From Acidilobaceae archaeon (GTDB taxonomy: Archaea; Thermoproteota; Thermoprotei_A; Sulfolobales; Acidilobaceae): DNA of 64,000 nucleotides. Below, piece after piece: positions 7,564 through 32,685 of this stretch. Numbering within the stretch: the first letter of the stretch is position 1; every line of letters starts with the position of its first letter. The stretch spans positions 124,001 to 188,000 of the forward strand of contig JALVZQ010000003.1 of NCBI GenBank assembly GCA_027037535.1, given 5' to 3'. A model generated the notes under the pieces. It ran no database searches and was not told the origin of the DNA. It worked only from the letters and a program-made list of their open reading frames with translations. Made by a program: the position numbers and the translations under genes.

Positions 7564-9237
7564 ATGAAGAGAATCACAGCAGATGACCTTGAGAATATCC
7601 TACACGGGCTTGATAAATCTTCTTACAAACAATACCGTGCACTCGAGAAATATACCTGGCACAGGGAGAAAGTAACCTATAAGTTCCTGAAGATTCAAGG
7701 AGACCCATTCGCTCCCCCCAGCATCCTGGAAGCTAAAGGAGTACTTCCGCGTGACAACTTAGAAGAGTGTAAAGGAGCAGAAACCGCTCTTGCAGATAAA
7801 TTATCGAGGATCTTAGTTGATGAGAGTTCTCGGACACGATATATAAAGATGGGAGAAGGCAATAGTGGACGCGTATTGTTCTACAAGCCTGGCCCAGTAA
7901 TGATACCGCGTGCCTCGACACGGGTAATCTATAGTAGGGATGGGACCAGGTACAGGATCCTCATTAGACTAGGATTACCGTCACGGAGGAGAAGAATACT
8001 TGCAGATGAGGCGGCGAGACTACTCTTAGAAAAGGTTCCTGCAATAATCGAGAATGGTACAAAGAGGATCTTGAGGAGTGAAAAGGAGACTTTGGAATGG
8101 TGCCGGCTATACAGGGATCAGGAACTCATACGAGGCATGCTAGAGGAGAAGGGGCTTGTATCATTCATAGCGGATGGAAGCATACTTCCTCGGAGATGCG
8201 GAGGCTGTAGCGAGCCCCTCGAAGATGCGGTACCCTTCGAGTCTCCTCCCAGTCTACGCGTAGAAATAGAGACGGAATACCATGGTACAATAACTGGGAT
8301 GGGTATACGTCGGGGGCTAACAGTTATTGCTGGCCCCGCTTTTCACGGCAAGACCACGCTCCTCGAAGCGATACGATCAGGTGTATGGAACCATATCCCA
8401 GGTGATGGGAGAGAACTCGTAGTCACCGGGCGGGACGCGGTCTATGTTAAGAGCGAGAATGGGAGAAGAGTATCATGCGTGGACTTGAGGAACTGGCTCC
8501 GTGGACTGCCTGGTGGAAGAAGCATAGACTGCTTCACGACCAGCGACGCGAGCGGTGCAACCAGCGCCGCGGCATCTATAGAGGAATACGTGTCTATGGG
8601 CAGCCGCCTTATCCTGGTCGATGAGGATGAGATAGCAACTAACCTCCTCCATAGAGATAAGTGGACCGAGGACTATACCGGGAAGAAGACTCTTGTGACG
8701 TTGACAGAGATGGCTGGATCAATGAAGGAGAATGGCATAAGTCTAGTAGTAGTAGCGAGTGGAACATTGCCGTTGCTCGCCGCAGCAGACACCATAATAG
8801 TGATGGACGAGTATAGGCCGAGGGACGCCTCCAAGTACAGGGAAGAAGCCAAGAGACTAGTAGAGGTCGCAGGCCTGTACTCAATGGAGGAATACAGGCG
8901 GCCACGGCCCAGATCATACCGTCTAGTGAGGAGGCCTAGGAAGTGGAAGGTCACAGGTCTCCTATACCAGGACCGGGAGAGGAATCTGGCTAGGCTAGAT
9001 GCATTTAGCTACTTGGAGGATCCAGGCCAGTTATATAGCGCAGTCAAGCTGGCTTATAGTATCCTAGATAGTCGCCCGAGACGCTTATCATCGAGGGACG
9101 CAGAGGAGAGGGTTATCCGGGTCCTCGATCGGTCAGGGGACCCCGACCTCGTCTATGTTAGGGGTTTCGAGGTTCTCGGTGCCGCGGAGCGACTCCCGGG
9201 ATTCGAGTCCCGGAACAGAGTGAGCCGCTCCCAATAG
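7564..9237 (+). CDS. ABC-class ATPase of the COG3044 type
   Basis: The 557-residue protein matches the pattern of predicted ABC-class ATPases (COG3044 family). It has a long N-terminal domain beginning ITADDLENILHGLDKSSYKQYRALE, typical for the family. A Walker A appears as GPAFHGKTTLLEAI near residue 256, then a Walker B region RLILVDEDEIATNLLHRD. There is no membrane segment, so it is not a transporter subunit. The biochemical role of the family is not established as far as I know. It sits 73 bases upstream of top6B on the same strand; a functional link is only positional. ATG 7564 follows AAGGTGTG. Confidence 0.85.
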   Translation: MKRITADDLENILHGLDKSSYKQYRALEKYTWHREKVTYKFLKIQGDPFAPPSILEAKGVLPRDNLEECKGAETALADKLSRILVDESSRTRYIKMGEGNSGRVLFYKPGPVMIPRASTRVIYSRDGTRYRILIRLGLPSRRRRILADEAARLLLEKVPAIIENGTKRILRSEKETLEWCRLYRDQELIRGMLEEKGLVSFIADGSILPRRCGGCSEPLEDAVPFESPPSLRVEIETEYHGTITGMGIRRGLTVIAGPAFHGKTTLLEAIRSGVWNHIPGDGRELVVTGRDAVYVKSENGRRVSCVDLRNWLRGLPGGRSIDCFTTSDASGATSAAASIEEYVSMGSRLILVDEDEIATNLLHRDKWTEDYTGKKTLVTLTEMAGSMKENGISLVVVASGTLPLLAAADTIIVMDEYRPRDASKYREEAKRLVEVAGLYSMEEYRRPRPRSYRLVRRPRKWKVTGLLYQDRERNLARLDAFSYLEDPGQLYSAVKLAYSILDSRPRRLSSRDAEERVIRVLDRSGDPDLVYVRGFEVLGAAERLPGFESRNRVSRSQ

Positions 9238-17973: not shown

Positions 17974-18564
17974 TTAACTATAGGGACAAACTCTCCTATA
18001 AATACATGTTCTACACGTAATACTTGGCCGCTTTGGGGGCGGGGGACTATTCATGCTGAGTGTTTTGTGCGTCTCTCTTATCTCTTTGAGAGCGGTTATA
18101 ATCCATGTATTATTTACTTTAACGATATTCTCTGGACTGGCAATATATGCTTCGACGCCTCGATAATCGTTGTGTTCGGCGAGGATCATGTAGACCCCTG
18201 CCTGGACGTATGCTGGGTCGTCTCTTCTTGGGTGGCGTAGCTTCGCCTCTATAATGATGTTTTTATCTCTACACGTTACTAGGGCGTCTATGCTTCCAGA
18301 TACTCTTAGGGCGCTGCTCCACAGTCTTTTCTCCCGGTATATCCCGGTTATCTCGCAGTCCTGGGCTAGCTTCTCCACGGCGTCTCGGAGTATTGATCCT
18401 ATGAGGTCATCGTATCCTATCAGCCTCGCGTGCTCGGCTGTGAAGTGAGGCGGGCTCCACGCTATTCCAGGGCCGTGCACCTTGAGCCAGGCAAGGGCCG
18501 GGCACCAGTAGTGGTTTGATACGAGCTTAGCCGTTATTCTCCCCTTATAGCTCGACAACTCCAT
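17974..18564 (-). CDS. cas4: Cas4 nuclease (RecB-like, 4Fe-4S)
   Basis: The 196-residue protein is a Cas4: an N-terminal cysteine (NHYWCPAL, Cys21) and a C-terminal CRTCIYRRVCPYS supply the four iron-sulfur ligands. The nuclease core shows GSIDALV (acidic metal ligand), IIIEAKLRH (ExK) and YVQAGVYM (QxxxY). Cas4 trims prespacers and sets their length and orientation before integration. ATG 18564 overlaps the cas2 end by 20 bases, indicating translational coupling. A second Cas4-related gene (csa1) leads the same operon, as in crenarchaeal adaptation modules. Confidence 0.93.
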   Translation of the reverse strand: MELSSYKGRITAKLVSNHYWCPALAWLKVHGPGIAWSPPHFTAEHARLIGYDDLIGSILRDAVEKLAQDCEITGIYREKRLWSSALRVSGSIDALVTCRDKNIIIEAKLRHPRRDDPAYVQAGVYMILAEHNDYRGVEAYIASPENIVKVNNTWIITALKEIRETHKTLSMNSPPPPKRPSITCRTCIYRRVCPYS

Positions 18565-18823
18565 CCCTCTTATACGATAAGCCTATGACAAGCGCGTTCT
18601 CCAGGCTCCACTCGGGGACGGTCATTATAAGCACGGTGTCGGTTCTTGGATCTATGCGTCTCGCTGCGACCTCCGCTACCCTGTTCCTGAGCCCCCTGTA
18701 GGATCCTCTATAGACGTAGACGCTCCTCTGTATCCTTGAAAACCCCATCCTGAGTAGGTCGTTCGCGAGCTTTACCCTATTAGTATCGTCGCTCACGTCA
18801 TAAGCAACTAATAATACACCCAA
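18545..18823 (-). CDS. cas2: Cas2 endoribonuclease-like integration subunit
   Basis: With TTG 18823 as start the protein has 92 residues, the usual Cas2 size. It begins VLGVLLVAYDVSDDTNR; the first-strand aspartate (AYDVSDD) and the RIQRSVYVYRG strand are typical. The track start at 18871 would add 16 residues from inside cas1 and is less likely. GGATGGTG lies upstream of the TTG. Cas2 bridges two Cas1 dimers in the spacer integration complex. It sits directly between cas1 and cas4. Confidence 0.92.
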   Translation of the reverse strand: MGVLLVAYDVSDDTNRVKLANDLLRMGFSRIQRSVYVYRGSYRGLRNRVAEVAARRIDPRTDTVLIMTVPEWSLENALVIGLSYKRDGVVEL

Positions 18824-18830
18824 TACCCGT

Positions 18831-19796
18831 TCACCATCCCTCCGGGGGCAACGCGGACCAGTCTCCTCCATCTACAAGGGCAGAAGCAAGCCTCCAAGCG
18901 TCCCTGACTATGACGCCTCTAACATCGTAGCGTGACCCAGGATACCTCGACTCCTCCATCTTGAACCACGCCTTGAGGAGACCGCTCCGAGTCTCCCTCG
19001 ACAAGGACCCGTCGGGCTCCAAGACTACATCCTTCCTAGCCGCGTACTTCAATACAGTCCACTCCGCCAGCCATCTATAAGGCTCCATAAAGTCAAGGGT
19101 GAGACTCGGCCTCCCACTCTTCTCCACATGCATAAACCCCATATACGGGTAGAGCCCCGCCAGCCACAGGCTCCTATGACATACGCCCCTGAGGAGACCA
19201 TAAGCATAGTCCAAAGCAGTATTCCACTCGTCCCCGCCCCTAGGTATCCGGGCCCTAAACCCTTTCTCCCCGAGAACCGTGTACTCTACGATACTAGCCC
19301 AGTACCTCCTCCCAGCCTCCGCCTCCAACAACCTCAACTCATCGATAGAAGAAGCCTCCACCACCCTAGCATAATACGCCTCCAGCCCCCACGCTGTATC
19401 CCTCAACTCCAAGCCATAACCCCTACTCAGCCTCTTCAAGAGCCAAACCCTGCCACGGATCTTCCCCTTAACAAACCACTTCGCAGCCCTCAGCCTAAGA
19501 CCAGGATTCAGCCTCCACTCGGCCTGAGCAATATACTTGTCAGCGGTCCTAGTAGGAGTCCCCGGGAGAACCACCGAGACCAGGTCCCCGCGGGGACCAG
19601 CGAAATACAAGGGAACACCAGACCTACCCGCCTCATACAAGAGCCTCGCACTAACACTAGCAGAACTAGACGATACAACAATAACGTCGACCTCCGATAA
19701 AGGAACACGCTCAACCAGCTCCCTCCCACGCCTAACCTCAACCTGGCCCCTCCTGAGCCCTAGGCTCAGCCCGGGCCCCACCACTACGAGCCTCAC
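18831..19796 (-). CDS. cas1: Cas1 integrase
   Basis: From GTG 19796 (MRLVVVGPGLSLGLRRG, behind GGGGTGG) the protein has 321 residues. Catalytic metal ligands fit the family: Glu in LRLLEAEAGRRYW, His in GFMHVEKSGRPSL and Asp in LTLDFMEPYRW. Cas1 integrates new spacers at the leader end. The longer track ORF (to 19967) overlaps csa1 and is unlikely; even the chosen start overlaps csa1 by 59 bases. The coding strand is remarkably rich in G and T, as are csa1 and the leader, giving a GTG/GGG/CTG-heavy codon pattern unlike cas2 and cas4. Confidence 0.94.
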   Translation of the reverse strand: MRLVVVGPGLSLGLRRGQVEVRRGRELVERVPLSEVDVIVVSSSSASVSARLLYEAGRSGVPLYFAGPRGDLVSVVLPGTPTRTADKYIAQAEWRLNPGLRLRAAKWFVKGKIRGRVWLLKRLSRGYGLELRDTAWGLEAYYARVVEASSIDELRLLEAEAGRRYWASIVEYTVLGEKGFRARIPRGGDEWNTALDYAYGLLRGVCHRSLWLAGLYPYMGFMHVEKSGRPSLTLDFMEPYRWLAEWTVLKYAARKDVVLEPDGSLSRETRSGLLKAWFKMEESRYPGSRYDVRGVIVRDAWRLASALVDGGDWSALPPEGW

Positions 19797-20502
19797 GCCT
19801 ACCACCCCAACACACGCTCCTAAAAGGACAACCCTCCGGGCACTCCCCCGGAGACAAGGGTATACCCGGATCCTCCTCCAACACGCCCTCAATATACTCA
19901 ACCATATCCAACAGCCTCGCCCTAAGCCCGTCATCCACACAAACCCGCTCCACCCTCCCACTCCCAAGACTCACCAAGAACCCCACGTCAACCGGGCTCC
20001 CCCAAGCATGCTCCAGCAACAAGGCATACGCGGCGACCACAAGCCTCTTCCTCCCCCAAGTCACACTACCAGGAGGAGAACTCACCAACTCCACAGGATA
20101 AGGCCCCAACACCAGGTCCGGCACACCCTCCCTAAACCCTGCCCAGCCCGGCAGCCTAGGCTCAACCCTGACAGGGACAATATCACGATACCCCAACCAC
20201 CTAACAACACTCGACAAAGCCCACAACCCCGCCACACTCCTCACACCCCTAGCAGCCTCCAACAAGCCCTCCCACCCCCTCTCAACCCCAGACCTCCAAA
20301 CACCCAAAGCCTCCTCATGCATATCCAACCCAGCCCTCATAGCCCGAGTAACACCCCTAACACCAGCCCTCCGCCTCAAAAACACACCCCTACCCGTAGG
20401 ACACATCACCACAAGATCACTAGGCAAAACAACACCAGCACCACGAACGCTCCAAGCCCTCAAGCGAGGCTCCACACAAAAATCATCCCTCCAACTCCAC
20501 AA
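19738..20502 (-). CDS. csa1: Cas4-family protein Csa1 (adaptation module)
   Basis: The C-terminal ~250 residues of a long GT-rich open frame encode Csa1. Key signs are WSWRDD near the start, DLVVMCPTGRGVFLRRR (cysteine plus arginine-rich strand), GVPDLV and PYPVELVSS (acidic nuclease ligands), and the C-terminal iron-sulfur cluster CPEGCPFRSVC. The start is uncertain: TTG 20502 keeps the WSW residues that I recall as typical of the family, while GTG 20475 has GGAGGG upstream. The remaining N-terminus of the 399-residue track ORF is translated leader DNA and is excluded. Csa1 is the first gene of the cas operon, reading away from the array. Confidence 0.85.
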   Translation of the reverse strand: MWSWRDDFCVEPRLRAWSVRGAGVVLPSDLVVMCPTGRGVFLRRRAGVRGVTRAMRAGLDMHEEALGVWRSGVERGWEGLLEAARGVRSVAGLWALSSVVRWLGYRDIVPVRVEPRLPGWAGFREGVPDLVLGPYPVELVSSPPGSVTWGRKRLVVAAYALLLEHAWGSPVDVGFLVSLGSGRVERVCVDDGLRARLLDMVEYIEGVLEEDPGIPLSPGECPEGCPFRSVCWGGRREARSGGARAEPRAQEGPG

Positions 20503-20863
20503 GCCAAGAATCCAACCAATAAGATTGAAACTCCCACTAATAACACACCACCAAAAATAAAAGAACACAACCACAAATAATAAACCCACACCCACCACAC
20601 AACACCATAACAGACACCCACAAACCCATCCGAAACAAACCCACACAAACAACAACACCAAACCCCCAACAAAAACACAAACAACAAAAAGAACAACACC
20701 AACCCATCCGAAACACAACCACAAAACCCCCGCACAAAACAACAAAAAACCAAAAATTCGAAACCAAAACCAAAAAACATAAAACCCCAAAAACCCAAAC
20801 AAAAACAACAGAATAGAAAACACAACCAACACAAAAACAATACCGAGCCAGAAACAACCACTG
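20503..20863 (+). promoter_or_regulatory. CRISPR leader, A/C-only, shared with divergent cas promoter
   Basis: The 360 bases between csa1 and the first repeat consist almost only of A and C on the plus strand. The array repeats end in ATAGAAAG on this strand, so this is the leader side where transcription and spacer insertion start. A 14-base direct repeat AACCCATCCGAAAC occurs at 20623 and 20701, 78 bp apart, followed both times by similar sequence. No classical TATA box stands out on the plus strand. On the minus strand TTCTTTTATTTTTGG (~20550) could be the csa1 promoter. Long minus-strand ORFs here are composition artefacts. Confidence 0.8.
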
Positions 20864-21397
20864 GAATACTCAAAAGAGAATAGAAAGTGCGTAGTTTTTT
20901 GAGTGTTTTTGCTAGGTAGAGTCTTCTGAATACTCAAAAGAGAATAGAAAGAACCATATAATCATCAAGAGCAAGCATATTGAAGCTCTTTGGAATACTC
21001 AAAAGAGAATAGAAAGGTCATATCAGCTATCTGTTTCTCCGGTGGAAGTAGTCGAATACTCAAAAGAGAATAGAAAGAGCCATAACCCTCTCAGCACGCC
21101 TAACAACACTAGCAGAATACTCAAAAGAGAATAGAAAGTCTATCCAATCATATTCAAAGTCTTCGATCTTTACTGGAAGGAATACTCAAAAGAGAATAGA
21201 AAGGGAGTGTGGGCCACTAGCCACAAGATAGACATACCCGTTACTGAATACTCAAAAGAGAATAGAAAGAGAATCGTACGCCAATCCACATCTCTACACC
21301 TCATCCATGAATACTCAAAAGAGAATAGAAAGATGTAAGCATTGTTGCTTAGCCTGACGATGGCAGTGTCGTCGAATACTCAAAAGAGAATAGAAAG

Positions 21398-21502
21398 ATT
21401 CTCCCCGGTGCATTTTACACTTACACAACCCCTGGTGGGAATACTTGCGTGGTTTATAGTTTATTGGTCTTATGCATACTTTACTTACACAACCCCTGGT
21501 GG
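21398..21502 (+). repeat. Anomalous double unit in the array (eroded repeat, duplicated spacer end)
   Basis: Between intact repeats at 21374 and 21503 lie 105 bases instead of about 40. At 21439 the seven bases GAATACT remain of a repeat, then unrelated sequence follows. The two flanking spacers share TGCAT, five variable bases, and then ACTTACACAACCCCTGGTGG directly before the repeat start. Cas6 should not recognise the damaged copy, so one long crRNA is expected. Confidence 0.85.
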
Positions 21503-23484
21503 GAATACTCAAAAGAGAATAGAAAGTTTAGCCTAGCGTTCTCTTCGAGGGCTCTGATATAGTCGTGGAATACTCAAAAGAGAATAGAAAGGTGGCGACA
21601 GTGAGGAGCCGGGAGAAGAGGAAGCGCCTAGGAATACTCAAAAGAGAATAGAAAGATCTTATGCGCAGGAGCCTAGCCGAGCTACTAGTCCCACTGAATA
21701 CTCAAAAGAGAATAGAAAGGTTTTGGATGTATGAACCTGAATGTATATCCTTCTGTTTTGTGAATACTCAAAAGAGAATAGAAAGCCTCTATTACATAGT
21801 GAGAACACAAATACGCCTATCTCAGAATACTCAAAAGAGAATAGAAAGATTTTCTTTTAAGCGAGTTTCATATCGAGCTCGAATACGGAATACTCAAAAG
21901 AGAATAGAAAGGGCGGTCTACCGCTCTTCATAGCCTCATACAATGCTTGAATACTCAAAAGAGAATAGAAAGATATCTATCATTCAACCTATTATAATAT
22001 TTGTAAATTGACTTGAATACTCAAAAGAGAATAGAAAGTCCTACCAGTCTTAGCCGGGGGCTGTATGTTTAGTGCTCTAGAATACTCAAAAGAGAATAGA
22101 AAGTGTCTATGTCTCGAATGATCATGGCTACCATCCCCCGGGGGAATACTCAAAAGAGAATAGAAAGTTCTTGTGTTCTGGGATCGTTGCATGGTAGTAT
22201 TACGTTTATGAATACTCAAAAGAGAATAGAAAGTACCCGCCAGCACCATCTGCCGACAACCAAGCCCAACCATAGAATACTCAAAAGAGAATAGAAAGAG
22301 TTCGTATAGAAATTCCTCAAGCCTATCCCAATCGTTCGAATACTCAAAAGAGAATAGAAAGTCACACCTGTTACGTCGAGGAAACAGCAAGGCTTCCCAT
22401 GGAATACTCAAAAGAGAATAGAAAGTCTAACACATTCTTTAGGTATTCTCTAGCTTTCATTTGAATACTCAAAAGAGAATAGAAAGCTACAACTAATAAG
22501 TCTCTCACGATCATTTGCTGATTCGGAATACTCAAAAGAGAATAGAAAGCATACTTCATCTATAAGAACATAGGTAGCTTTATCGTTGGAATACTCAAAA
22601 GAGAATAGAAAGAATTATAAGAATTTAGTTTAGAGATTTTTATCACCTGTGCAGAATACTCAAAAGAGAATAGAAAGATAAGGTTGGGCGAGCCACAATG
22701 CAGGGCGTAATCGTAGAATACTCAAAAGAGAATAGAAAGTATAACAGGCATCCGTTTCTTAACTAATGCTACTACGCCCGAATACTCAAAAGAGAATAGA
22801 AAGCTCTAATTCCATGATTTGTTCCTCGCCCCATTCAGCGGGGAATACTCAAAAGAGAATAGAAAGCACCACTCCCGGGTGGTTTTTGTTTTACGTTTCC
22901 TTCTTTCCCGAATACTCAAAAGAGAATAGAAAGTAGTCTAAATAATAAAATATTATTCCTGCGTCTGCTAATGTGAATACTCAAAAGAGAATAGAAAGTC
23001 GGGGAGTGCTAGCTCCCTTGGAATAGCCTTCTCTGGCTTGAATACTCAAAAGAGAATAGAAAGCTCATGTGGTTTAAGAGGACCCGGGTCGTGTCCTGGA
23101 GCGAATACTCAAAAGAGAATAGAAAGATGGGAAGTCCACGACTACTTTATACAGTTTAATGTAAAGAGGGAATACTCAAAAGAGAATAGAAAGACGCTTT
23201 ATGGATTTTTGCCTTGTGCCCTGTTTTATTATTATGGAATACTCAAAAGAGAATAGAAAGCCAAGATACACTGTCCCGTTCTCGTCTATAGCCGCCACAA
23301 GAATACTCAAAAGAGAATAGAAAGCCGCCGCCATGATAATGGCGGGGCTAACAGCTACGGGATGAATACTCAAAAGAGAATAGAAAGTACTCTGTCTTCT
23401 ATTGGCTTACCCTTATACTTGTGGCTTACGAATACTCAAAAGAGAATAGAAAGCCATAAGAGATGATTCCTATACTTACTGCTT

Positions 23485-23513
23485 CCAATACTCCGAATAC
23501 TCTAAAGTATTGG
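23485..23513 (+). terminator. Inverted repeat at the array trailer end
   Basis: CCAATACT (23485) and AGTATTGG (23506) form a perfect 8-bp stem with a 13-base loop that contains the start of the degenerate last repeat. It may end array transcription or block Cas6 cleavage; no clear T-run follows directly, so termination is only a possibility. Confidence 0.35.
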
Positions 23514-23608
23514 GATTGGAGAACCAATTGTGTTTTTGCATTCAGTGTGATTAGGATTGTAGCTGATGCTTCTAGTATTTATAAGAAATAGAATGTATAG
23601 AGAAGACG

Positions 23609-23675: not shown

Positions 23676-24653
23676 TTGTGGAGGAGGTGTATCATACTGT
23701 CATCTAGTAAAAAACCAGATTCATTACTCGTATTCGCAGTTTCTTTAACCAAACTTCATCCAGGAGCTGGCCGTAGTCCAGGGATTGTAGATCTCCCAGT
23801 AATCAGGGATCCTCTAGGGTATCCATTTATTCCAGGTACAATGTTCAAGGGTAGCCTCAAGACAAATTTAATCAAGAAATATTCTTCTGAAAAAGAAAAG
23901 ATTAGATGCCTACTGGGTCCAGAGCCCGAGGAACCGGAAAAATATACTGGGGCACTTACCATAAGTGACTTGTATCCCTTATTCCTTCCAGCACCAAGCA
24001 CATACCGGGGCCTAGTATATGTTACGAGTAGAGTATTGTTATCCCGCGCATACGAGATAGCGAGGACATTCGGTAATCACAATGCTCTAGTTCAAGCACT
24101 AGGATCCCTATTGGATAATTCGGAAGAAAACAAGATTGTGATAATAGGAGAAGAGGGTCAAGAAAAAACAAGAATAGGAGCATACACGATGGAGGCAGAT
24201 TTCAAAAACTTAGCTGGAGACAACCAAGATAACCCGCTCAAGAGTATGGAAGATATTCTAGACGATCTATACGTGTTGTATCATAGGATACCTCTAAGTA
24301 ACAGGATAGTCATACTACCAGAGGAATACGCTGTACCTGTGATTGAGAGCGTGTTAATAAGGATATCGAGAGTGAGACTAGACAGAGAAACTAAAACAGT
24401 TGAGCAGGGAGGTCTATGGACGGAAGAATATATTCCTTGGGGAACAATCTTCATGGGAGCAATAATCGATAATGGATTCAAGCATAATAATTGTAAAGAA
24501 AAAATCGGAGACGATCCGACAAAAACACTACTACAACTGACCAGCAACATATTCACCCTAGCCATAGGCGGTAAAGAAACCGTAGGAGGAGGAATAACAA
24601 AGATCCTACTATTAAAGGGTGGAAGCAATGAGCAGACAACTGGACATGGTTGA
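23676..24653 (+). CDS. cmr4: Type III-B RAMP protein Cmr4 (Cas7 backbone)
   Basis: The product is Cmr4, the repeated backbone subunit that cuts target RNA every 6 nt. Signs are LTKLHPGAGRSPGIVDLPVIRD, with the catalytic aspartate in VDLP, then PFIPGTMFKGSLKTN, the thumb region, and the late GGKETVGGGITKI glycine-rich loop. The track start TTG 23676 lies upstream of a perfect GGAGGAGGTG ribosome site (23680-23689). Behind that site the only in-frame candidates at good spacing are ATA 23694 and CTG 23697. The true N-terminus is therefore probably about seven residues shorter and uses a rare start codon. It heads the cmr operon. Confidence 0.9.
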   Translation: MWRRCIILSSSKKPDSLLVFAVSLTKLHPGAGRSPGIVDLPVIRDPLGYPFIPGTMFKGSLKTNLIKKYSSEKEKIRCLLGPEPEEPEKYTGALTISDLYPLFLPAPSTYRGLVYVTSRVLLSRAYEIARTFGNHNALVQALGSLLDNSEENKIVIIGEEGQEKTRIGAYTMEADFKNLAGDNQDNPLKSMEDILDDLYVLYHRIPLSNRIVILPEEYAVPVIESVLIRISRVRLDRETKTVEQGGLWTEEYIPWGTIFMGAIIDNGFKHNNCKEKIGDDPTKTLLQLTSNIFTLAIGGKETVGGGITKILLLKGGSNEQTTGHG

Positions 24654-25104
24654 GCTCGCGATGAAACATGCGCTAAGACTAAACCAGCTAGTATCAACAA
24701 CCGAAAAGGGAAAGGACTTAGCGAAAAAACTGAGGAGTAGAGCACGGGAACTACCCTCTCTAATAATGGACAACGGCCTCGTAGTGACACTCCTATTTTA
24801 TCTATCAAAAGCCGAGAACCCAAAGATCGTAGAGAACTCAGTAAAAATCATGCTAAACAATGAGAGAATAAAAGATTCAATATTGAACCCCGGCAAATAC
24901 GCTTATGCCCTTATAGCTGCATCCGTGCTTACAGCACTGAAAGAAACAGGTATAATCAAGATAGAGTCCGATGCAAGTGTCGAAGATATAGTAAAGATAT
25001 TGATAGAGAAGAGAGAGAGCCAAGAAGTAATGATTACCGGCATAATAGAAGAATATGTCGTGAACCTAAAGAGAGCAGCCGAATTCCTCTGGGAGGAAGA
25101 ATAA
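24628..25104 (+). CDS. cmr5: Type III-B small subunit Cmr5 (Cas11)
   Basis: The 158-residue helical protein (MSRQLDMVELAMKHALRL, then a series of amphipathic helices) is the size and place of Cmr5, which lines the inner filament of the Cmr complex and contacts target RNA. ATG 24628 follows GGGTGG at good spacing and overlaps the cmr4 end by 26 bases; the track's GTG 24619 adds three residues. Sequence conservation in this family is weak, so the call rests on size, helicity and operon position between cmr4 and cmr1. Confidence 0.85.
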   Translation: MSRQLDMVELAMKHALRLNQLVSTTEKGKDLAKKLRSRARELPSLIMDNGLVVTLLFYLSKAENPKIVENSVKIMLNNERIKDSILNPGKYAYALIAASVLTALKETGIIKIESDASVEDIVKILIEKRESQEVMITGIIEEYVVNLKRAAEFLWEEE

Positions 25105-25120
25105 GAGGAGGGCCCACACT

Positions 25121-26875
25121 ATGACTATTACATTCAACATTAATGGAAGAGACACAATCATAGACCTAAAAACCCTAGTGGAACACGCCGCCAAACTACT
25201 AGAAAAGAACCTTATAATAGAAGCAGACTACAAACCCATATCACCGCTACTCATAGGAGACTTCACAGGCGAATCCTATAAACTCGTAAAAGAACCGACA
25301 AGCGGAAAAATCATAGGAGCCTACCTCACAGGAATACCAACCGCACAACAAATAATAGGAAAAGCAAGATGGCTAATGAGAGTAGCAATAGCAACAACAG
25401 GCATAGCAAGTACCCATAAAGAAGCAGAGCAAACACCAATAGTAGCAACAATCAAAGACAGTAGCGGAAAACAAGTAAGCCTGGGACCAGTAGAACTAGC
25501 ATTCGGAAACGCAAAAAAGAAATGGAAAGGACTCCTACAAATCGACATAAACATCACAAAAAGACTTTTTATAGAGAGTAGCCTGGCTAGAGGCGATGAT
25601 ATAGTAAATGCTATTATAAGTGCGAGGAATCATTTTATTGACAAAATATTCTTCGGAGAACGAGAAACTACTGGAAAGTTCGATAATAGGAAAAAATATG
25701 ACATAGTAAAGTATAAATGGTTATGGCGCCAGAATCGGTATAAAACGTTATTAGCTAGAAAAACCGATAGGTTGAATCATAATATTATAGTAGTTTCCAA
25801 AGAAAATGAAAACAAAAGAATATATCTAAAAGAACCGGTAAGCAGTTCCAAGATAGGATCTCCTGAGTTCAAAATGAAAGTTCTCATAGATGAGAAACGA
25901 CTTAAAAAGATTCTATCAATAAACAAGGAAAAGCAAGGATTAGTAAATACGGCATTAATACTAGCAATACTAAGCATAATATCGTCACCTTTATTGTTGG
26001 GATTAGGAACAGGTACTAATAGAGGATTCGGTAGATTTAAGCCGGTTAATATTAGATTAAACGATTATGGCCAGTATTTATTTGAGAAATATACTGAGTA
26101 TAATCTCGATGAATTAACTGAACCCATCAATATTCTAGAGCAACTCTATAAATTAGCAAATTCTCTAGCGGCAGAAAGTAAGCTAGAATTAAATAAAAAT
26201 GGTAGTTTTACAGGTTCTATGTATAACAACCTAGTACCCATACTACCAGTTAAAGTTAATACAGAGGATTTACGAGTCTTCAGGCATGAATTAGAATTAG
26301 AAACTGATATGGACGTATATGTAGCCTTAGGTGCTATTGGTGCAGCTGCAATTAAAAATAATTGGATAACTATTTACAAGCGTTTAAAGAATAAAGATAA
26401 AAACAGACAATATAGCAAGATAAGCGATCAATTAAGCGATAAAGGAAAAATGCTAGCGAGAAAAATCGAAAGAAAACATTTTCACACGTGGCCTTTAGGT
26501 TTGCCGAGAAGCGTGGTTACGAAAAAAAGTAGAACCGGCTATTTTATACTAGACTCTCAAAATAGATTGACGCAAGGACGTAGACAGAGCTTTATTTCAG
26601 CATTCTATTTAAATAATAAGATATATGTCATAGGATACCCATCGGGAGATTTTGTAAATAAGCTATTAGATAAAATAGTTTATGTTACAAACAGCAAGAG
26701 ACTTTCCACAAACAAAATAGAAGATATATTAGAGAATGTGGCTGATATTAGAAATGGTCAAATACTGAACTTCTCCGACCTTAACCAGGATCCTACTTCT
26801 TATAAAGAATTTCTAAAAGTCACTTTTGGTAATTATATGTGTGTATTAAGAGGGCTTCTTGGGGTGAATGAATAA
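25121..26875 (+). CDS. cmr1: Type III-B RAMP protein Cmr1 (Cas7-like)
   Basis: The 584-residue protein fits Cmr1, which caps the 3' end of the crRNA in the complex. It contains two RAMP domains: the first with IEADYKPISPLLIGD and TGIPTAQQIIGKARWLMRV, then the glycine-rich loop LGLGTGTNRGFGRFKP near residue 300. The second domain is more divergent (HFHTWPLGLPRSVV). GGAGG lies 9 bases before the ATG. The first ~440 bases are A/C-skewed with few T, whereas from about 25,560 the gene becomes typical AT-rich sequence. The switch is abrupt and may mark recombination. The stop overlaps the track start of cmr6 by 8 bases. Confidence 0.85.
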   Translation: MTITFNINGRDTIIDLKTLVEHAAKLLEKNLIIEADYKPISPLLIGDFTGESYKLVKEPTSGKIIGAYLTGIPTAQQIIGKARWLMRVAIATTGIASTHKEAEQTPIVATIKDSSGKQVSLGPVELAFGNAKKKWKGLLQIDINITKRLFIESSLARGDDIVNAIISARNHFIDKIFFGERETTGKFDNRKKYDIVKYKWLWRQNRYKTLLARKTDRLNHNIIVVSKENENKRIYLKEPVSSSKIGSPEFKMKVLIDEKRLKKILSINKEKQGLVNTALILAILSIISSPLLLGLGTGTNRGFGRFKPVNIRLNDYGQYLFEKYTEYNLDELTEPINILEQLYKLANSLAAESKLELNKNGSFTGSMYNNLVPILPVKVNTEDLRVFRHELELETDMDVYVALGAIGAAAIKNNWITIYKRLKNKDKNRQYSKISDQLSDKGKMLARKIERKHFHTWPLGLPRSVVTKKSRTGYFILDSQNRLTQGRRQSFISAFYLNNKIYVIGYPSGDFVNKLLDKIVYVTNSKRLSTNKIEDILENVADIRNGQILNFSDLNQDPTSYKEFLKVTFGNYMCVLRGLLGVNE

Positions 26876-28007
26876 TATGTTAAATAGGGTTCTTGCTGGG
26901 GGTTATCTTCTCGAAAATATTATAGATAACTACCTGGAAGTCTTCAAGGACCGTGGAGATAAAGAGGATTTGTCTAATGCCAAAAAGAGGGCTAAAAGGA
27001 ATCTTCTATCTGCTATTGTTGGTTGTAGTGGTTCCGAAAAATGTTGGAGGAATCATCTAAGGGATAGTTTATTGTTATCCGGGGAACTAATGGAAGAACT
27101 CTATAGAGGGCTCGTAAATGGTTTTCATTCGTTTGATTCTATTATTAGTTTGTCTCTAGTGTTAAGGAGTCTAGGGCTTGTTGGTTCTGGGGGAGGACTA
27201 CTCAGGAACATATTTGAGGTGGGCCTTAATATAGACTGGGTATTGGGCCTGCCATATTATCCTGGGAGCTCTATCAAGGGGGCTGTGCGTGCTACAGCAG
27301 AGGAATTCTTAAAAGAAGAAACTGTTAAAAGAATTTTTGGAAGAGAAGGAGAAGAAGGCTCAATTAGTTCCTTAGTATTCTATGATTCCTACCCTATTGG
27401 ATGCGAAGGCAATGGATCTCATCCCTGCCTAATAATTACTGGCGGGGTTGTAACACCACACTATTATTCCAACGGCGAGACTGTTGAGGCGGAAAGCGAT
27501 GCTACTCCGACACCAATACAACACATCGTAATTGCCCCAGGAACAGTATTTAGAGTAATTGTCGGGGTACGATGCCCGACGTATAGAGCAGAGAATGGAA
27601 AAACAAGCATAGACACCGGAGCTATGAAGGAGGTTATATCCCGTATTCTAGGAGAAGATCATGCTAGAGTATGCGACACATCCCCTAATGATAAAAATAC
27701 CAGGTGTCCCTGTATACAAGAATATACAACAGCCCTCGCAGTACTAATAACAACTACTCTCTCTAAGGGCTTCGCAGCGAGAAGCGCTAAAGGATATAAT
27801 ATCCTAGACCTCTATACAGGCGAAATCACTCGAGATGTTAAAAGCCTCGCACTCTACATCCCATCACCGACCAGACAGGATTCTAGACCCAAAGAATCAC
27901 ATTCCACTAAACCATATAGAGATCACAGGATGCATAAGGACAGAAAGAGACGTCATCCTGCTGGTCCAGATAAGAATTATTCTAGTAGAGGAAGAAAGCG
28001 GAGGTGA
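26868..28007 (+). CDS. cmr6: Type III-B RAMP protein Cmr6, C-terminus probably frameshifted
   Basis: The main part is Cmr6: GLNIDWVLGLPYYPGSSIKG, then the strand GGVVTPHYYSNG and SKGFAARSAKGYNILD as glycine-rich loop. Cmr6 binds near the 3' end of the crRNA filament next to Cmr1. GGGGTG sits 10 bases before ATG 26877, which may be the true start. After about 27,865 the frame becomes arginine/lysine/histidine-rich and unstructured, while the +1 frame (listed to 28041) gives well-formed strands such as IEITGCIRTERDVILLVQI. This suggests a one-base frameshift, by mutation, sequencing error or programmed slip, in the last ~50 codons. Confidence 0.85.
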   Translation: MNNMLNRVLAGGYLLENIIDNYLEVFKDRGDKEDLSNAKKRAKRNLLSAIVGCSGSEKCWRNHLRDSLLLSGELMEELYRGLVNGFHSFDSIISLSLVLRSLGLVGSGGGLLRNIFEVGLNIDWVLGLPYYPGSSIKGAVRATAEEFLKEETVKRIFGREGEEGSISSLVFYDSYPIGCEGNGSHPCLIITGGVVTPHYYSNGETVEAESDATPTPIQHIVIAPGTVFRVIVGVRCPTYRAENGKTSIDTGAMKEVISRILGEDHARVCDTSPNDKNTRCPCIQEYTTALAVLITTTLSKGFAARSAKGYNILDLYTGEITRDVKSLALYIPSPTRQDSRPKESHSTKPYRDHRMHKDRKRRHPAGPDKNYSSRGRKRR

Positions 28008-28015
28008 GAGCTACT

Positions 28016-31000
28016 ATGAGCAGGGATTTGTTAGTAGCTAGTCTAGCAGCATTATACCACGATCCTCCATGGAAGCCATGGATCATAACAGGACCTTCAA
28101 GAATAAGGGACGAAGACCTAGTATCTGGCTTAGAAGAATTTGAAGGCTTACGCGAGATAAGACACCGTTATAAGAAGATTATAGAACCGGTCAAAAAGAA
28201 GTTGGGGGGACATGAGAGACAGGCAGTTCTCGTACCATTGGCAATCGCTTTAAAACTAGAGAGAAAGAATCGGGACGATCTAGCTAGTATCTATTATGAA
28301 GCGATTAACGTATTAACTGGTGAAAATAAAAGGCTGTACGATGGTATGAAAAAAGCCGACATATATGCTAGTGCAATAGATAGATACGGACTATTTAACA
28401 AAATTCAAAAGTACTCAAAAGAAGAAGACAAGCTGGAACGAAGAATATACACTAGAACATTAAAATACGTTAATCCGTTCACCCTAGAAACCCTCAAAAT
28501 ACCTGATACAATAGACCATAAGCTTATTGTATCATTCATAGAGGGTTACTCAGAGATCGTAAGTGAGGCCCTAGTAAACACCTGTTCCTCGATGGGAGAA
28601 GAACATATCGTAAAATGCTTACCTATTATGCTAACAGTAGGATTCCTGCTATTAGAACCCTCATGGTACTATTATACAGGTTCACAGCCTGAGCATGAAG
28701 AAGTCTATGTCCCGCTGGCAGACACACGGATCCTTACTCATACAATATTCGATCATATAGATGCTGTTTTATCGACGCTAATTATAACATGGAATTATGG
28801 GGTTGGACCCGGCTGTATTAGTGTAATAGATCTAGCAGGAGTACAATCATGGATACAGGAATCCCGAAGACTACGAGATCTATGGGCGTCGAGCTGGCTG
28901 GCCAGTTTCCTCGGCTGGAAGGCTATTGAGCCTCTCGTTCAAAGTTATGGTCCTGGAATAATGATTAGCCCCTCAGCTAGGCTAAACTCGTTTGTAGCGT
29001 CGAGGATACTCGGGGAATGGCTCGAAAAACTAGGAAACAAGCATGAATGGATATGGATAGCACTAGGTATAGATAAAGAGGCGAAGTGGCCTATTCATCC
29101 AATCCTTCCAGGCAGGTTGCTAGTAGCAATACCATCTATTGAATGCTCTACACTAGAAGAGAGAGTCTCAGGATCAATATCTAGCTCGTGGAGGTATTTA
29201 TTGAAAGAAGCCCTAGAACAGGTAACTCCAATATGCGGAGAAGACGAAGACCAGGAGACTTGTGTATTGAACGACGAAGAGTTGGGAGCACTAGTAAGAG
29301 AACTAGAACCTCCCCTCGCGGTAAGGATATACACGGTTAAACCCAGCCTGTCGAGCCAGAATATGCAATCCGACATGCTATACACGTGGTACGACGAGGC
29401 ATTGCAGGAGTTGAATAAGCTAGAAAATATTAAGATCTCGGCTCCTGGACGTAGAACTGGATCAACATACCAGCTACTAGCAGAAAAAATCTATGAAAAG
29501 GGAAGACCAGCAAACTGTACAGTCTGTGGGAAAAGTATAGCAGTAATAGATGCCAGGAATATAAAAGGAAAAACAATTCATAGCCATAGTAAGGTAATTG
29601 TAGAATTAGGAGGAGACAGACTCTGCCCTTATTGTTTAGTTAAAAGAATGCTTAGATACCTAATTAGTTACAAGGAGAACTTTGCAAAACAACTGGTAGG
29701 TATCAGGACAAGTAAAGTCTTCAAGACTATTAGGTGGAACAGTGTTTGGGACCACTCCTCTAGGATGCAGGTTATAAGAGGAGTTCTTGAGCAAGATATC
29801 CCAGTAGAGTTAAGTAACATACTAGACAAATATAATTATGAAATATACCCTGAGGCCATATACAAACTATACATAATGCTAGGTAAACCACCTAGTCAAC
29901 AACGCTTACCCAGAAAGCTAGAGAATATTCTACTCTCCAGATTACAGGATGTGGACGATGCAGAGAAAGAATATTATTCAAAACTCCTATGGTCTATTAT
30001 ATCCGCGGCGTTAGATAATCCGCAAATCCTGGAAAAAACTGAAGAAACAACTCAAGAAATAGAACAGCTAGTTGATTTAGTCAATAAAATGACTAGAGCT
30101 ATAGGAAAACTATTCGGCAACATACCTCGACGATACGCTATAATCGCTGCGGACGGAGACTACATGGGCAAAGGGCTGCTAAGCGGAAAGATACCGCGCG
30201 GATGGATTATAAAAAAGAAAAGAGAAGACATTCTAGAAAGCGAGAACCCGCTAAAACCTGCCTCGCCCAAGGAATACTTTAAAGAAGACGTCACACTCGC
30301 AGCGGTCGGGTCAGCCTCTGAAGTTGCGGATAGGATTAGAAAAGCTTACGAGGATCTATCCAGTGATATAGAGAAAATCGTAGAGAAGCAACACGAGGAA
30401 TACTTACAAAGCTGTGCAACAATCAGAGAAAACGACCCAGTATCCAGGAGCCCTAAGACATTGATAGTGACTCCAAGTTTTCACGCAACAATTAGTAGAA
30501 GCCTAGCAGTTGTTATAGCTCTAGATGCAATCCTAAGCACAATGCATGGAGCCGAAATAATCTATCTAGGCGGAGACGACGCACTACTCGTAGCACCCCC
30601 GATGACCCTAGTACCGGATAAGAGACAAGGAGGTGAACTCAGTTACGTAGTCAGGCTTCCTGCACTAGACATTATCCGTGTTCTTAGAGGAAACTGGAGA
30701 GGGACAGGATCACAATATAATAGAAGCAAAGTTATAGGATTCAATTTCATAACATATAGTGAACAAGGCCAGTTAAGAGTCTTACACGTTGCTCCAGCTC
30801 CAGGGGCTTACGGTAGAACAATCACCGTACACCTAAGTGACGCTAAGAAACCCATGTGGTTATCCATAGCCGCCTCCAGACGATTAGAAGAAGCGAAAGA
30901 TAACTCAACGATCCTAGTCAATAACAAAGAGATATTTAGAAAGGATATCTTGATAATGTCCAGCGATACACGCGGAGCATTCATAGCTCCCTTATCGTTA

Positions 31001-31576
31001 TGGCCAGGAAATTATAACTCGGCCTGGCCTCAAACCACGGCAAAGGAGATCCTATGTTTATCAGTATTATCGCCTCCAACAAGGAGACCATTATCTGCGA
31101 GAATAATACATGATCTACCACTACTTACCGGTAGGTTCCTCTCATACAGAGGAGAGGCATCCCGTGACTTACAAATAATGAAAGGAATAATAGCATCAAC
31201 AATATCTAATGCAATCAATAAAGATAACCTAATAACAGCACTAAATATGAAGGGAATAACTAGAAATATACAATCAAAAGAACTCGCACTAAAACTTATC
31301 GATAGGTTTTTAGAGCAATTCTATGACTCAAACAGTTTACTCACACCGAATAAATCCAACTATAAGAATAATGTAGTATGGACTAGAGTATCTGTAGATA
31401 ACCTAATTGTGAACGGAGTAGATTATAGTAGTAACAGATATCTAGACACGTTCAAAAAAGATAATAATATCATTGTTCCAACGATCCTTTCACCCTTTGG
31501 CCTAGCCTACATTTATGAATCAGCAGTTTCCCTCCCCGAAGGTATCAATATAAAATGTCCTGGGGTGAGCATCTAA
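28016..31576 (+). CDS. cas10: Cas10/Cmr2, large subunit and cOA synthetase of type III-B
   Basis: From ATG 28016 (behind GGAGGTGAG) the protein has 1186 residues. An N-terminal HD motif appears as LYHDPPWKPW (His15-Asp16), suggesting single-stranded DNase activity. A zinc site follows with CTVCGKS and GDRLCPYCLVKR. The first Palm domain begins near AIIAADGDYMGKGLL and the second carries the intact catalytic GGDD (residues ~852-855, IIYLGGDDALLVAPP). Intact GGDD means cyclic oligoadenylate can be made on target binding. The stop overlaps cmr3 by one base (TAATG). Length is at the large end for Cmr2. Confidence 0.95.
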   Translation: MSRDLLVASLAALYHDPPWKPWIITGPSRIRDEDLVSGLEEFEGLREIRHRYKKIIEPVKKKLGGHERQAVLVPLAIALKLERKNRDDLASIYYEAINVLTGENKRLYDGMKKADIYASAIDRYGLFNKIQKYSKEEDKLERRIYTRTLKYVNPFTLETLKIPDTIDHKLIVSFIEGYSEIVSEALVNTCSSMGEEHIVKCLPIMLTVGFLLLEPSWYYYTGSQPEHEEVYVPLADTRILTHTIFDHIDAVLSTLIITWNYGVGPGCISVIDLAGVQSWIQESRRLRDLWASSWLASFLGWKAIEPLVQSYGPGIMISPSARLNSFVASRILGEWLEKLGNKHEWIWIALGIDKEAKWPIHPILPGRLLVAIPSIECSTLEERVSGSISSSWRYLLKEALEQVTPICGEDEDQETCVLNDEELGALVRELEPPLAVRIYTVKPSLSSQNMQSDMLYTWYDEALQELNKLENIKISAPGRRTGSTYQLLAEKIYEKGRPANCTVCGKSIAVIDARNIKGKTIHSHSKVIVELGGDRLCPYCLVKRMLRYLISYKENFAKQLVGIRTSKVFKTIRWNSVWDHSSRMQVIRGVLEQDIPVELSNILDKYNYEIYPEAIYKLYIMLGKPPSQQRLPRKLENILLSRLQDVDDAEKEYYSKLLWSIISAALDNPQILEKTEETTQEIEQLVDLVNKMTRAIGKLFGNIPRRYAIIAADGDYMGKGLLSGKIPRGWIIKKKREDILESENPLKPASPKEYFKEDVTLAAVGSASEVADRIRKAYEDLSSDIEKIVEKQHEEYLQSCATIRENDPVSRSPKTLIVTPSFHATISRSLAVVIALDAILSTMHGAEIIYLGGDDALLVAPPMTLVPDKRQGGELSYVVRLPALDIIRVLRGNWRGTGSQYNRSKVIGFNFITYSEQGQLRVLHVAPAPGAYGRTITVHLSDAKKPMWLSIAASRRLEEAKDNSTILVNNKEIFRKDILIMSSDTRGAFIAPLSLWPGNYNSAWPQTTAKEILCLSVLSPPTRRPLSARIIHDLPLLTGRFLSYRGEASRDLQIMKGIIASTISNAINKDNLITALNMKGITRNIQSKELALKLIDRFLEQFYDSNSLLTPNKSNYKNNVVWTRVSVDNLIVNGVDYSSNRYLDTFKKDNNIIVPTILSPFGLAYIYESAVSLPEGINIKCPGVSI

Positions 31577-32685
31577 TGAACAAATCGTTAATCGATATTA
31601 AGATCTTGCCTCTCGGAGGACTAACGTTTAAACCTCCAACACCCTTTGCCGCAGGAGTACACGGACCTGGTAGTTATGGTACTAGTCTATCTTATCCTCC
31701 GCCCTCCACTATATCCGGCATGTTATCCGGAATAGCCTATAACAGGCATAAGTGCGCTGATTTAGATACTATTACAGATTTACATGTATCGGAGCCATTC
31801 GCAGATACAATATTATGCTTGAAGAATCTCCTAGGCGAACGCTTCAAACTATATACGGGGTTCCTCTCTAAAGACGATGACATTTATGCCTATATAAACA
31901 AGGACGTGTTTCCCAGGCTTGATACCATATGCCCCGGCAAAAATATCTTGAAGACTGATAACATGATAAAAGCGGTAAAGCATAGACTTACAGGCATAAG
32001 CCTTGATAGGAGATCCAAAAACGTAAATGAGTCAATGCTATATAGTATTGAACGTGTCTCCTACACGCCGCAATCACATATAACAATTATAGCAGAAACA
32101 GAAGACCACGGTATCATGGTAAAAGATAGTTCAAATAGTATTGTAAAACTTGGCTCTAAAACGGGAATTGGAAAAATAGAAGTAACACAGGATAAGGGAG
32201 TTGATTATAGAATAATAGAGCCTGGAGATTATTGCGGTGTACTAGTCTCTCCTGCTATAATAGAAGAAAACCCGTTTAATACAGGGACTGTAATAGTGTC
32301 CAATAAAAAGGTGGCTGAAAAACTGATGCAAAGCCTAATTAAGGATTCAGAGATTAAAGGAAGTGGCTATATAGTAGAAGTTCCCAAGGGAGAATACGAG
32401 TTCTCCGTATACAATGTCGGATGGAGCCTTAAATTTAACAAGCCTAGACCACCAAAGCTAATAATACCACCGGGTACAAGATTCTACATTAATATTGAAC
32501 ATGAAACAGAACTATTATTTATCAACAAATATAGCAGGTACCTCGCAGGCCTAGGGGCCTGGAATAGGCTAGGATGGGGAACAACTATACTATGCAAAGT
32601 AGAAAAAGGTGAAGACTGTGAAAATCCCCGTTGTTGTATATTAAATAAATTGGATCGTAATTTGGATTCCTCTATTATTTTCTAG
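31576..32685 (+). CDS. cmr3: Type III-B RAMP protein Cmr3 (Cas5-like)
   Basis: From ATG 31576, overlapping the cas10 stop and behind GGGGTGAG, the protein has 369 residues. It shows the Cas5/Cmr3 pattern: LPLGGLTFKPPTPFAAG, then YPPPSTISGMLSGIAY (helix after the first strand), and the late glycine-rich AGLGAWNRLGWGTT. Cmr3 binds the 5' handle of the crRNA and contacts Cas10. It is the last gene of the cmr operon. A T-rich 143-base region separates its stop from convergent csx1 and probably holds terminators of both. Confidence 0.9.
   Translation: MNKSLIDIKILPLGGLTFKPPTPFAAGVHGPGSYGTSLSYPPPSTISGMLSGIAYNRHKCADLDTITDLHVSEPFADTILCLKNLLGERFKLYTGFLSKDDDIYAYINKDVFPRLDTICPGKNILKTDNMIKAVKHRLTGISLDRRSKNVNESMLYSIERVSYTPQSHITIIAETEDHGIMVKDSSNSIVKLGSKTGIGKIEVTQDKGVDYRIIEPGDYCGVLVSPAIIEENPFNTGTVIVSNKKVAEKLMQSLIKDSEIKGSGYIVEVPKGEYEFSVYNVGWSLKFNKPRPPKLIIPPGTRFYINIEHETELLFINKYSRYLAGLGAWNRLGWGTTILCKVEKGEDCENPRCCILNKLDRNLDSSIIF

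Follow-up and report, generated by a model that had tools for sequence, protein, structure and literature searches.

One internal repeat of an archaeal CRISPR array has been replaced rather than eroded, between two spacers that come from related targets and end in the same 20 nucleotides (nt), a description in which we place high confidence. The array lies in a window of 64,000 nt (G000:C3:124001-188000) from the draft genome (1.65 Mb in 8 contigs) of a hyperthermophilic archaeon, and its only internal fault is the unit at positions 21398-21502. Three schemes for the origin of this unit, namely, recombination with invader DNA, overwriting of a repeat between separately acquired spacers, and misplaced insertion by Cas1-Cas2, all fit its anatomy. 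Although the data do not decide among them, we prefer the first, that is, recombination or template switching between the first of the two spacers (spacer A) and related invader DNA, with a confidence that falls somewhat short of even.

The array (20864-23453, + strand) consists of 40 full copies of a 24-bp repeat, GAATACTCAAAAGAGAATAGAAAG, all identical, with no substitution in any of them, and of spacers 37-43 nt in length, the sole exception being the 105-nt unit. Apart from GAATACT at 21439, the only partial repeat copy in the array is the terminal repeat (23495-23518, + strand), which is degenerate on its 3' side and marks the trailer end. Because this degenerate copy stands at the right end, the leader most likely lies on the left, where an A/C-rich noncoding stretch that separates the first repeat from the divergently oriented adaptation genes represents the presumed leader (20521-20863, + strand; left edge approximate). 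The adaptation module (17974-20937, minus strand), divergent from the array, comprises genes for Cas4 (17974-18564), Cas2 (18545-18871), Cas1 (18831-19967), and a Cas4/Csa1-like protein (open reading frame 19738-20937, with the true start probably downstream), all of them PADLOC matches on the minus strand, and a gene for a CARF protein is located left of the array as well. To the right, the type III-B effector genes Cmr4, Cmr5, Cmr1, Cmr6, Cas10/Cmr2, and Cmr3 (23676-32685, + strand; PADLOC) are followed by a gene for a Csx1-like CARF-HEPN protein. With its identical repeats, similar-sized spacers, and adjacent cas1, cas2, and cas4, the locus is a CRISPR array with a crenarchaeal adaptation module, and the combination of Cas10/Cmr2 with Cmr1, 3, 4, 5, and 6 identifies it as type III-B. 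Arrays were located by repeat patterns, a procedure that would miss an array of another repeat type; no array with the same repeat is carried by any of the close relatives.

The anomalous unit is bounded by two perfect repeats (21374-21397 and 21503-21526) and reads, from left to right on the + strand, spacer A of 41 nt (21398-21438); the first 7 of the 24 repeat bases, GAATACT (21439-21445); a 17-nt filler, TGCGTGGTTTATAGTTT (21446-21462), that occupies the place of the remaining repeat bases; and a 40-nt stretch, B (21463-21502), the last 20 nt of which are those of spacer A (21419-21438 = 21483-21502). A preliminary description of this DNA had reported a 105-base unit with two identically ending spacers, a middle repeat reduced to GAATACT, and perfect repeats on both sides, all of which we confirm; it also had listed five differing bases after TGCAT, of which four indeed differ, whereas the fifth matches. 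The shared end belongs to a longer direct repeat of 37 nt (21409-21445 and 21473-21509; 33/37 identical) that takes in GAATACT. Together, the filler and B form a 57-nt segment (21446-21502) devoid of any repeat sequence, TGCGTGGTTTATAGTTTATTGGTCTTATGCATAC. The flanking perfect repeats are spaced 129 nt apart, that is, 65+64, the length of two normal units. Two simple rearrangements were considered and rejected. One deletion reaching from the repeat into a spacer of normal length would not leave 57 nt, the longest spacer of the array being 43 nt. Nor can the partial repeat be a relic of a terminal repeat at which two arrays were joined, since the "trailer" would then need an A-like sequence by chance.

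The filler shares with repeat bases 8-24 only 1 of 17 positions in register, and its alignment with the repeat is no better than that of shuffled sequences (P = 0.65). These two results refute erosion by point mutation, under which title the unit had been described, and equally reject a derivation of the filler from the repeat by mutation, shift, or reverse complementation: bases 8-24 are absent rather than mutated, so that instead of a recognizable mutated copy, as in a degenerate internal repeat, seven bases are left and the rest is unrelated. The preservation of the first seven bases and the similarly 3'-degenerate terminal repeat would suit erosion, which we nevertheless regard as extremely improbable, considering that the 40 other repeats are free of substitutions. 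The filler also was not copied from another host locus, because the host genome contains no second copy; all other matches carry 3 mismatches, and there are 12 of these, compared with 2 for a reversed-pattern control. From its 1/17 match to the repeat and the lack of another copy in the host genome, the filler is inserted DNA, probably foreign.

The relatedness of the two spacers is corroborated by spacers elsewhere in the genome. When all pairs among the ~125 spacers found in the genome were scored, with five shuffled spacer sets as the control, the scores were 42 for A-B, 39 for A-C, 32 for A-D, and 28 for B-C, against shuffled-set maxima of 24-32 and second-best values of 23-25; A-B and A-C are clearly above the shuffled sets, and A-D is borderline by score. 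Spacer C (L003, reverse, 8122-8153), from a second array with the repeat GTTAAAAACAAGCAAAACTAAGAG, matches A at 24 of 26 positions and was the only further match in a search of the whole genome, and spacer D (L047, 949-979), from a third array, begins at the same base as A and in the same orientation. All four sequences share one orientation and are distributed over three arrays of one genome. The earlier suggestion that A and B originate from related targets is thus supported, with similarity above chance for the pair and independent spacers of the same family in two other arrays. B itself has a mosaic composition. The upstream portion, CTTATGCAT, resembles spacer C (CTTATACAT) more closely than it does A (CCGGTGCAT), whereas the final 20 nt agree fully with A, from which C deviates in this region. 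Two more half-identical spacer pairs, both with a shared 5' start, occur in arrays with the other repeat (L046 5636-5677 and L046 14482-14514; L046 13900-13936 and L047 408-447). The shared 5' start conforms to what is reported for Sulfolobus, in which the PAM-side ends of spacers are fixed and the leader-distal ends are variable (PMC3468723). The presence of at least four related sequences from one target family in three arrays points to repeated encounters with diverging invaders.

On the minus strand, an ATG is found at the same place in A, B, C, and D and opens the frames MHRGE, MHKTN, MYK, and MRRGE; the codons after the ATG differ in a coding-like way, and the length differences lie upstream of it. 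Judging from these features, the four sequences may span the beginning of a minus-strand gene that varies among the invaders, and if this reading holds, the frame of B hits a stop in the filler. Such a gene start fits the four sequences better than a + strand peptide, (Y)TYTTPGG, conserved in A, B, and C, which was rejected after a degenerate search returned four unrelated viral matches and spacer D proved to break the frame.

The source of A, B, C, or D was not found in the collections searched, nor was a gene with this minus-strand start. No match to A, B, the filler, or the 20-base common end exceeded chance expectation in IMG/VR (with exact and degenerate patterns for A and B), in phage records, or in 214 genomes of the order and 398 of the phylum, and the GTDB contigs yielded one match, in Scalindua, about the number expected by chance; the search for protospacers of both halves that the preliminary description had proposed therefore retrieved no target from any of these sets. 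Targets of other spacers of the array are present in a congener. The spacer at 22362-22401 has a 40/40 protospacer in a virus-like contig of a congener, flanked by TCT, and that at 21592-21631 has a 36/40 protospacer in a small contig of a congener, flanked by TCA, whereas two weaker protospacer matches of the array lack a TCN flank. A TCN PAM is thus likely for this array, on the strength of two protospacers, and TCN is the PAM of loci A and B of Sulfolobus solfataricus (PMC5815122). As a separate observation, the congener contig with the exact protospacer (L060; G044:C205, 8873 bases) carries genes that appear virus-like by eye (ribbon-helix-helix-like and methylase-like) and may represent a virus of the genus.

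In the scheme that we prefer, related invader DNA with ~30 bp of homology to spacer A would have recombined or switched templates with the array. Copying would pass through A and seven bases of the next repeat, switch to the invader at a point upstream of the region of homology, and proceed along it until a return crossover inside the shared 20 bp led back to the original 3' end of A, followed by the intact repeat. The outcome would be a duplication of the 3' end of A together with GAATACT, with a truncated repeat left in between. The return crossover into A would explain why B is C-like upstream and A-identical downstream and why the two ends coincide exactly, and homology to A would explain why the segment adjoins A. 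Recombination is further favored by a filler that is neither repeat nor host sequence, by the relatedness of A, B, C, and D in one orientation across three arrays, and by the bases preceding ATTGGTC, the start of B, which are TTT, whereas a canonical protospacer with its natural flank would be expected to show TCN. All nine leader-side repeats are perfect (9/9), and the event thus was not copied forward by later insertions at the leader end.

Several observations run against this scheme. The contiguous foreign origin of the 57 nt is an assumption, the searches described above having retrieved no invader with this segment; the PAM argument is built on two protospacers; and the left junction offers no checkable microhomology. 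To our knowledge, reports of invaders recombining with array spacers are not common. In addition, the spacing of 64 (24+40) and the ATT at the start of B, as in A and D, suit a normally acquired spacer and would be coincidences under recombination, and the stop in the filler, if the gene-start reading is right, hints at a discontinuity between B and the filler.

The last two points are what would be expected if A (41 nt) and B (40 nt) had entered the array in separate acquisitions from related targets, with a full repeat between them, and a later local repair or template switch had overwritten the last 17 bases of this repeat with unrelated sequence of similar length, an origin that we consider rather unlikely. 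Consistent with such overwriting, the spacing of 129 (65+64) and the 40-nt length of B are typical, B has its ATT start, the reading frame possibly breaks at the B/filler boundary, and the 5' ends shared by the other half-identical pairs are those expected of PAM-anchored sampling of related viruses (PMC3468723). However, overwriting requires that 17 nt be swapped for 17 nt that the rest of the host genome lacks; the 3' ends of A and B coincide to the base, even though leader-distal ends are normally heterogeneous (PMC3468723); and the similarity of B to C upstream yet identity to A downstream is left unexplained.

The structure of the unit, A followed by GAATACT, 57 nt, and GAATACTCAAAAG..., can also be read, formally, as 57 inserted bp on whose two sides a 7-bp target site has been duplicated (GAATACT...GAATACT), all produced in one event. 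Accordingly, Cas1-Cas2 could have inserted an over-long 57-bp prespacer into the internal repeat beside A, with the second attack falling 7 bp in, rather than 24. Insertion of single spacers at internal repeats is seen in Sulfolobus locus E (PMC3468723), and the first 10 nt of the 57-mer (21446-21502) match those of the leader-proximal spacer (20888-20927) at 9 positions (TGCGTGGTTT and TGCGTAGTTT, respectively), hinting at GAATACT/TGCG as the start of a spacer; this is the best start-anchored match among all spacers (background of 5e-5 per comparison), although the observation was made post hoc. Misplaced insertion does not account for the 20 nt that the segment has in common with the 3' end of A, the 57 nt exceed the 37-43 nt range, and the nucleotide at +1 on the attacked strand is an A, whereas S. 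solfataricus Cas1 prefers C or G (PMC5815122). Had the insertion occurred at the leader end, all newer units would carry hybrid repeats, but those repeats are perfect. Thus, the unit, with its 57 nt and 7-bp duplication, departs from an ectopic Cas1-Cas2 insertion, which places a normal-length spacer and duplicates the full repeat, and we hold this origin to be distinctly unlikely. The broader alternatives of the preliminary description, a recombination or a failed integration, are nonetheless supported to the extent that an event of this general kind took place.

An assembly or sequencing artefact, such as a chimeric join inside the array, appears very unlikely. The assembly does falter at arrays elsewhere, with a draft contig ending inside one R2 array (C2 end/C8 start), a 10-N gap in another array, and a two-spacer block common to the arrays at the C2/C8 break, but misjoining of host pieces could not produce the unique filler, and the array is otherwise continuous, with every other repeat perfect.

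The other arrays display some irregularities of their own. The two-spacer block, present in the C3 array (L003, reverse, 8357-8452), at the end of C2 (L046, 14956-14989), and at the start of C8 (L047, 45-82), falls exactly at the C2/C8 contig break and reflects either copying of the block from one array to another or a fault of the assembly. The 10-N gap is in the C3 array that contains spacer C and lies beside that spacer. An isolated, perfect copy of the second repeat type (L064 1198-1221; G000:C3:204697-204720) is located ~1.1 kb past the end of its array and supplies the last codons of a small open frame (...YNPVKNKQN); open frames, one possibly encoding a PIN-type protein, lie between the array end and this repeat, and a degenerate copy follows further on, so that the array end looks interrupted by inserted genes.

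Whatever its origin, the lesion is expected to affect the guides made from the unit. Type III and I-A crRNAs are trimmed at the 3' end, so that a normal crRNA A with no crRNA B is more likely than the abnormally long crRNA anticipated in the preliminary description. With one processing site missing, a long precursor is to be expected: a transcript piece of ~129 nt would be shortened at the 3' side until a normal crRNA A bearing the tag ATAGAAAG is left, and no crRNA would start at B. Archaeal Cas6 cuts in the repeat and leaves an 8-nt 5' tag (PMC4390879), and the loss of the 3' end of the repeat would deprive B of both the processing site and the tag. Hence, A probably matures normally and B is probably silent as a guide, whereas an abnormally long crRNA itself is doubtful. 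The candidate processing enzyme of this genome is the only Cas6-like match, which is weak and below its cut-off.

Taken alone, the unit amounts to an isolated scar in one array. Should the 57 nt be contiguous invader DNA, it would illustrate how an array can be rewritten through homology with an invader, a seldom-considered route to altered immune memory. A version of this idea in which invader DNA entered the array by spacer homology without Cas1-Cas2, so that a partly matching memory served as the landing site and was rewritten by a related virus, we regard as unlikely.

Compared with known systems, the unit is an instance of known array damage with an informative duplicated end, a rare scar rather than a new system, and both related spacers and internal insertions are already known elsewhere. 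Damaged internal repeats that create apparent long spacers are handled by CRISPRDetect (PMC4869251). Those cases resemble ours in that a substantial stretch of a repeat, or of a repeat-spacer junction, has disappeared and a pair of spacers is taken for a single long one; they differ in that here other DNA occupies the gap and maintains the period, and in that both halves end in a common run of 20 bases. The internal insertion in locus E of S. solfataricus (PMC3468723) similarly involves a nonleader position in a crenarchaeal array with a Csa1/Cas4-Cas1-Cas2-Cas4 module, but the insertions reported there are of spacer-repeat units, whereas here 7 of the 24 repeat bases are duplicated. Finally, the family of A, B, C, and D resembles the overlapping, near-identical spacers described previously (PMC3468723), which stem from related or repeatedly sampled protospacers, with several spacers of one genome per site in one orientation, and the other half-identical pairs of this genome share their 5' (PAM-side) ends; by contrast, it is at the 3' side that A and B agree, and the repeat preceding B is not intact.
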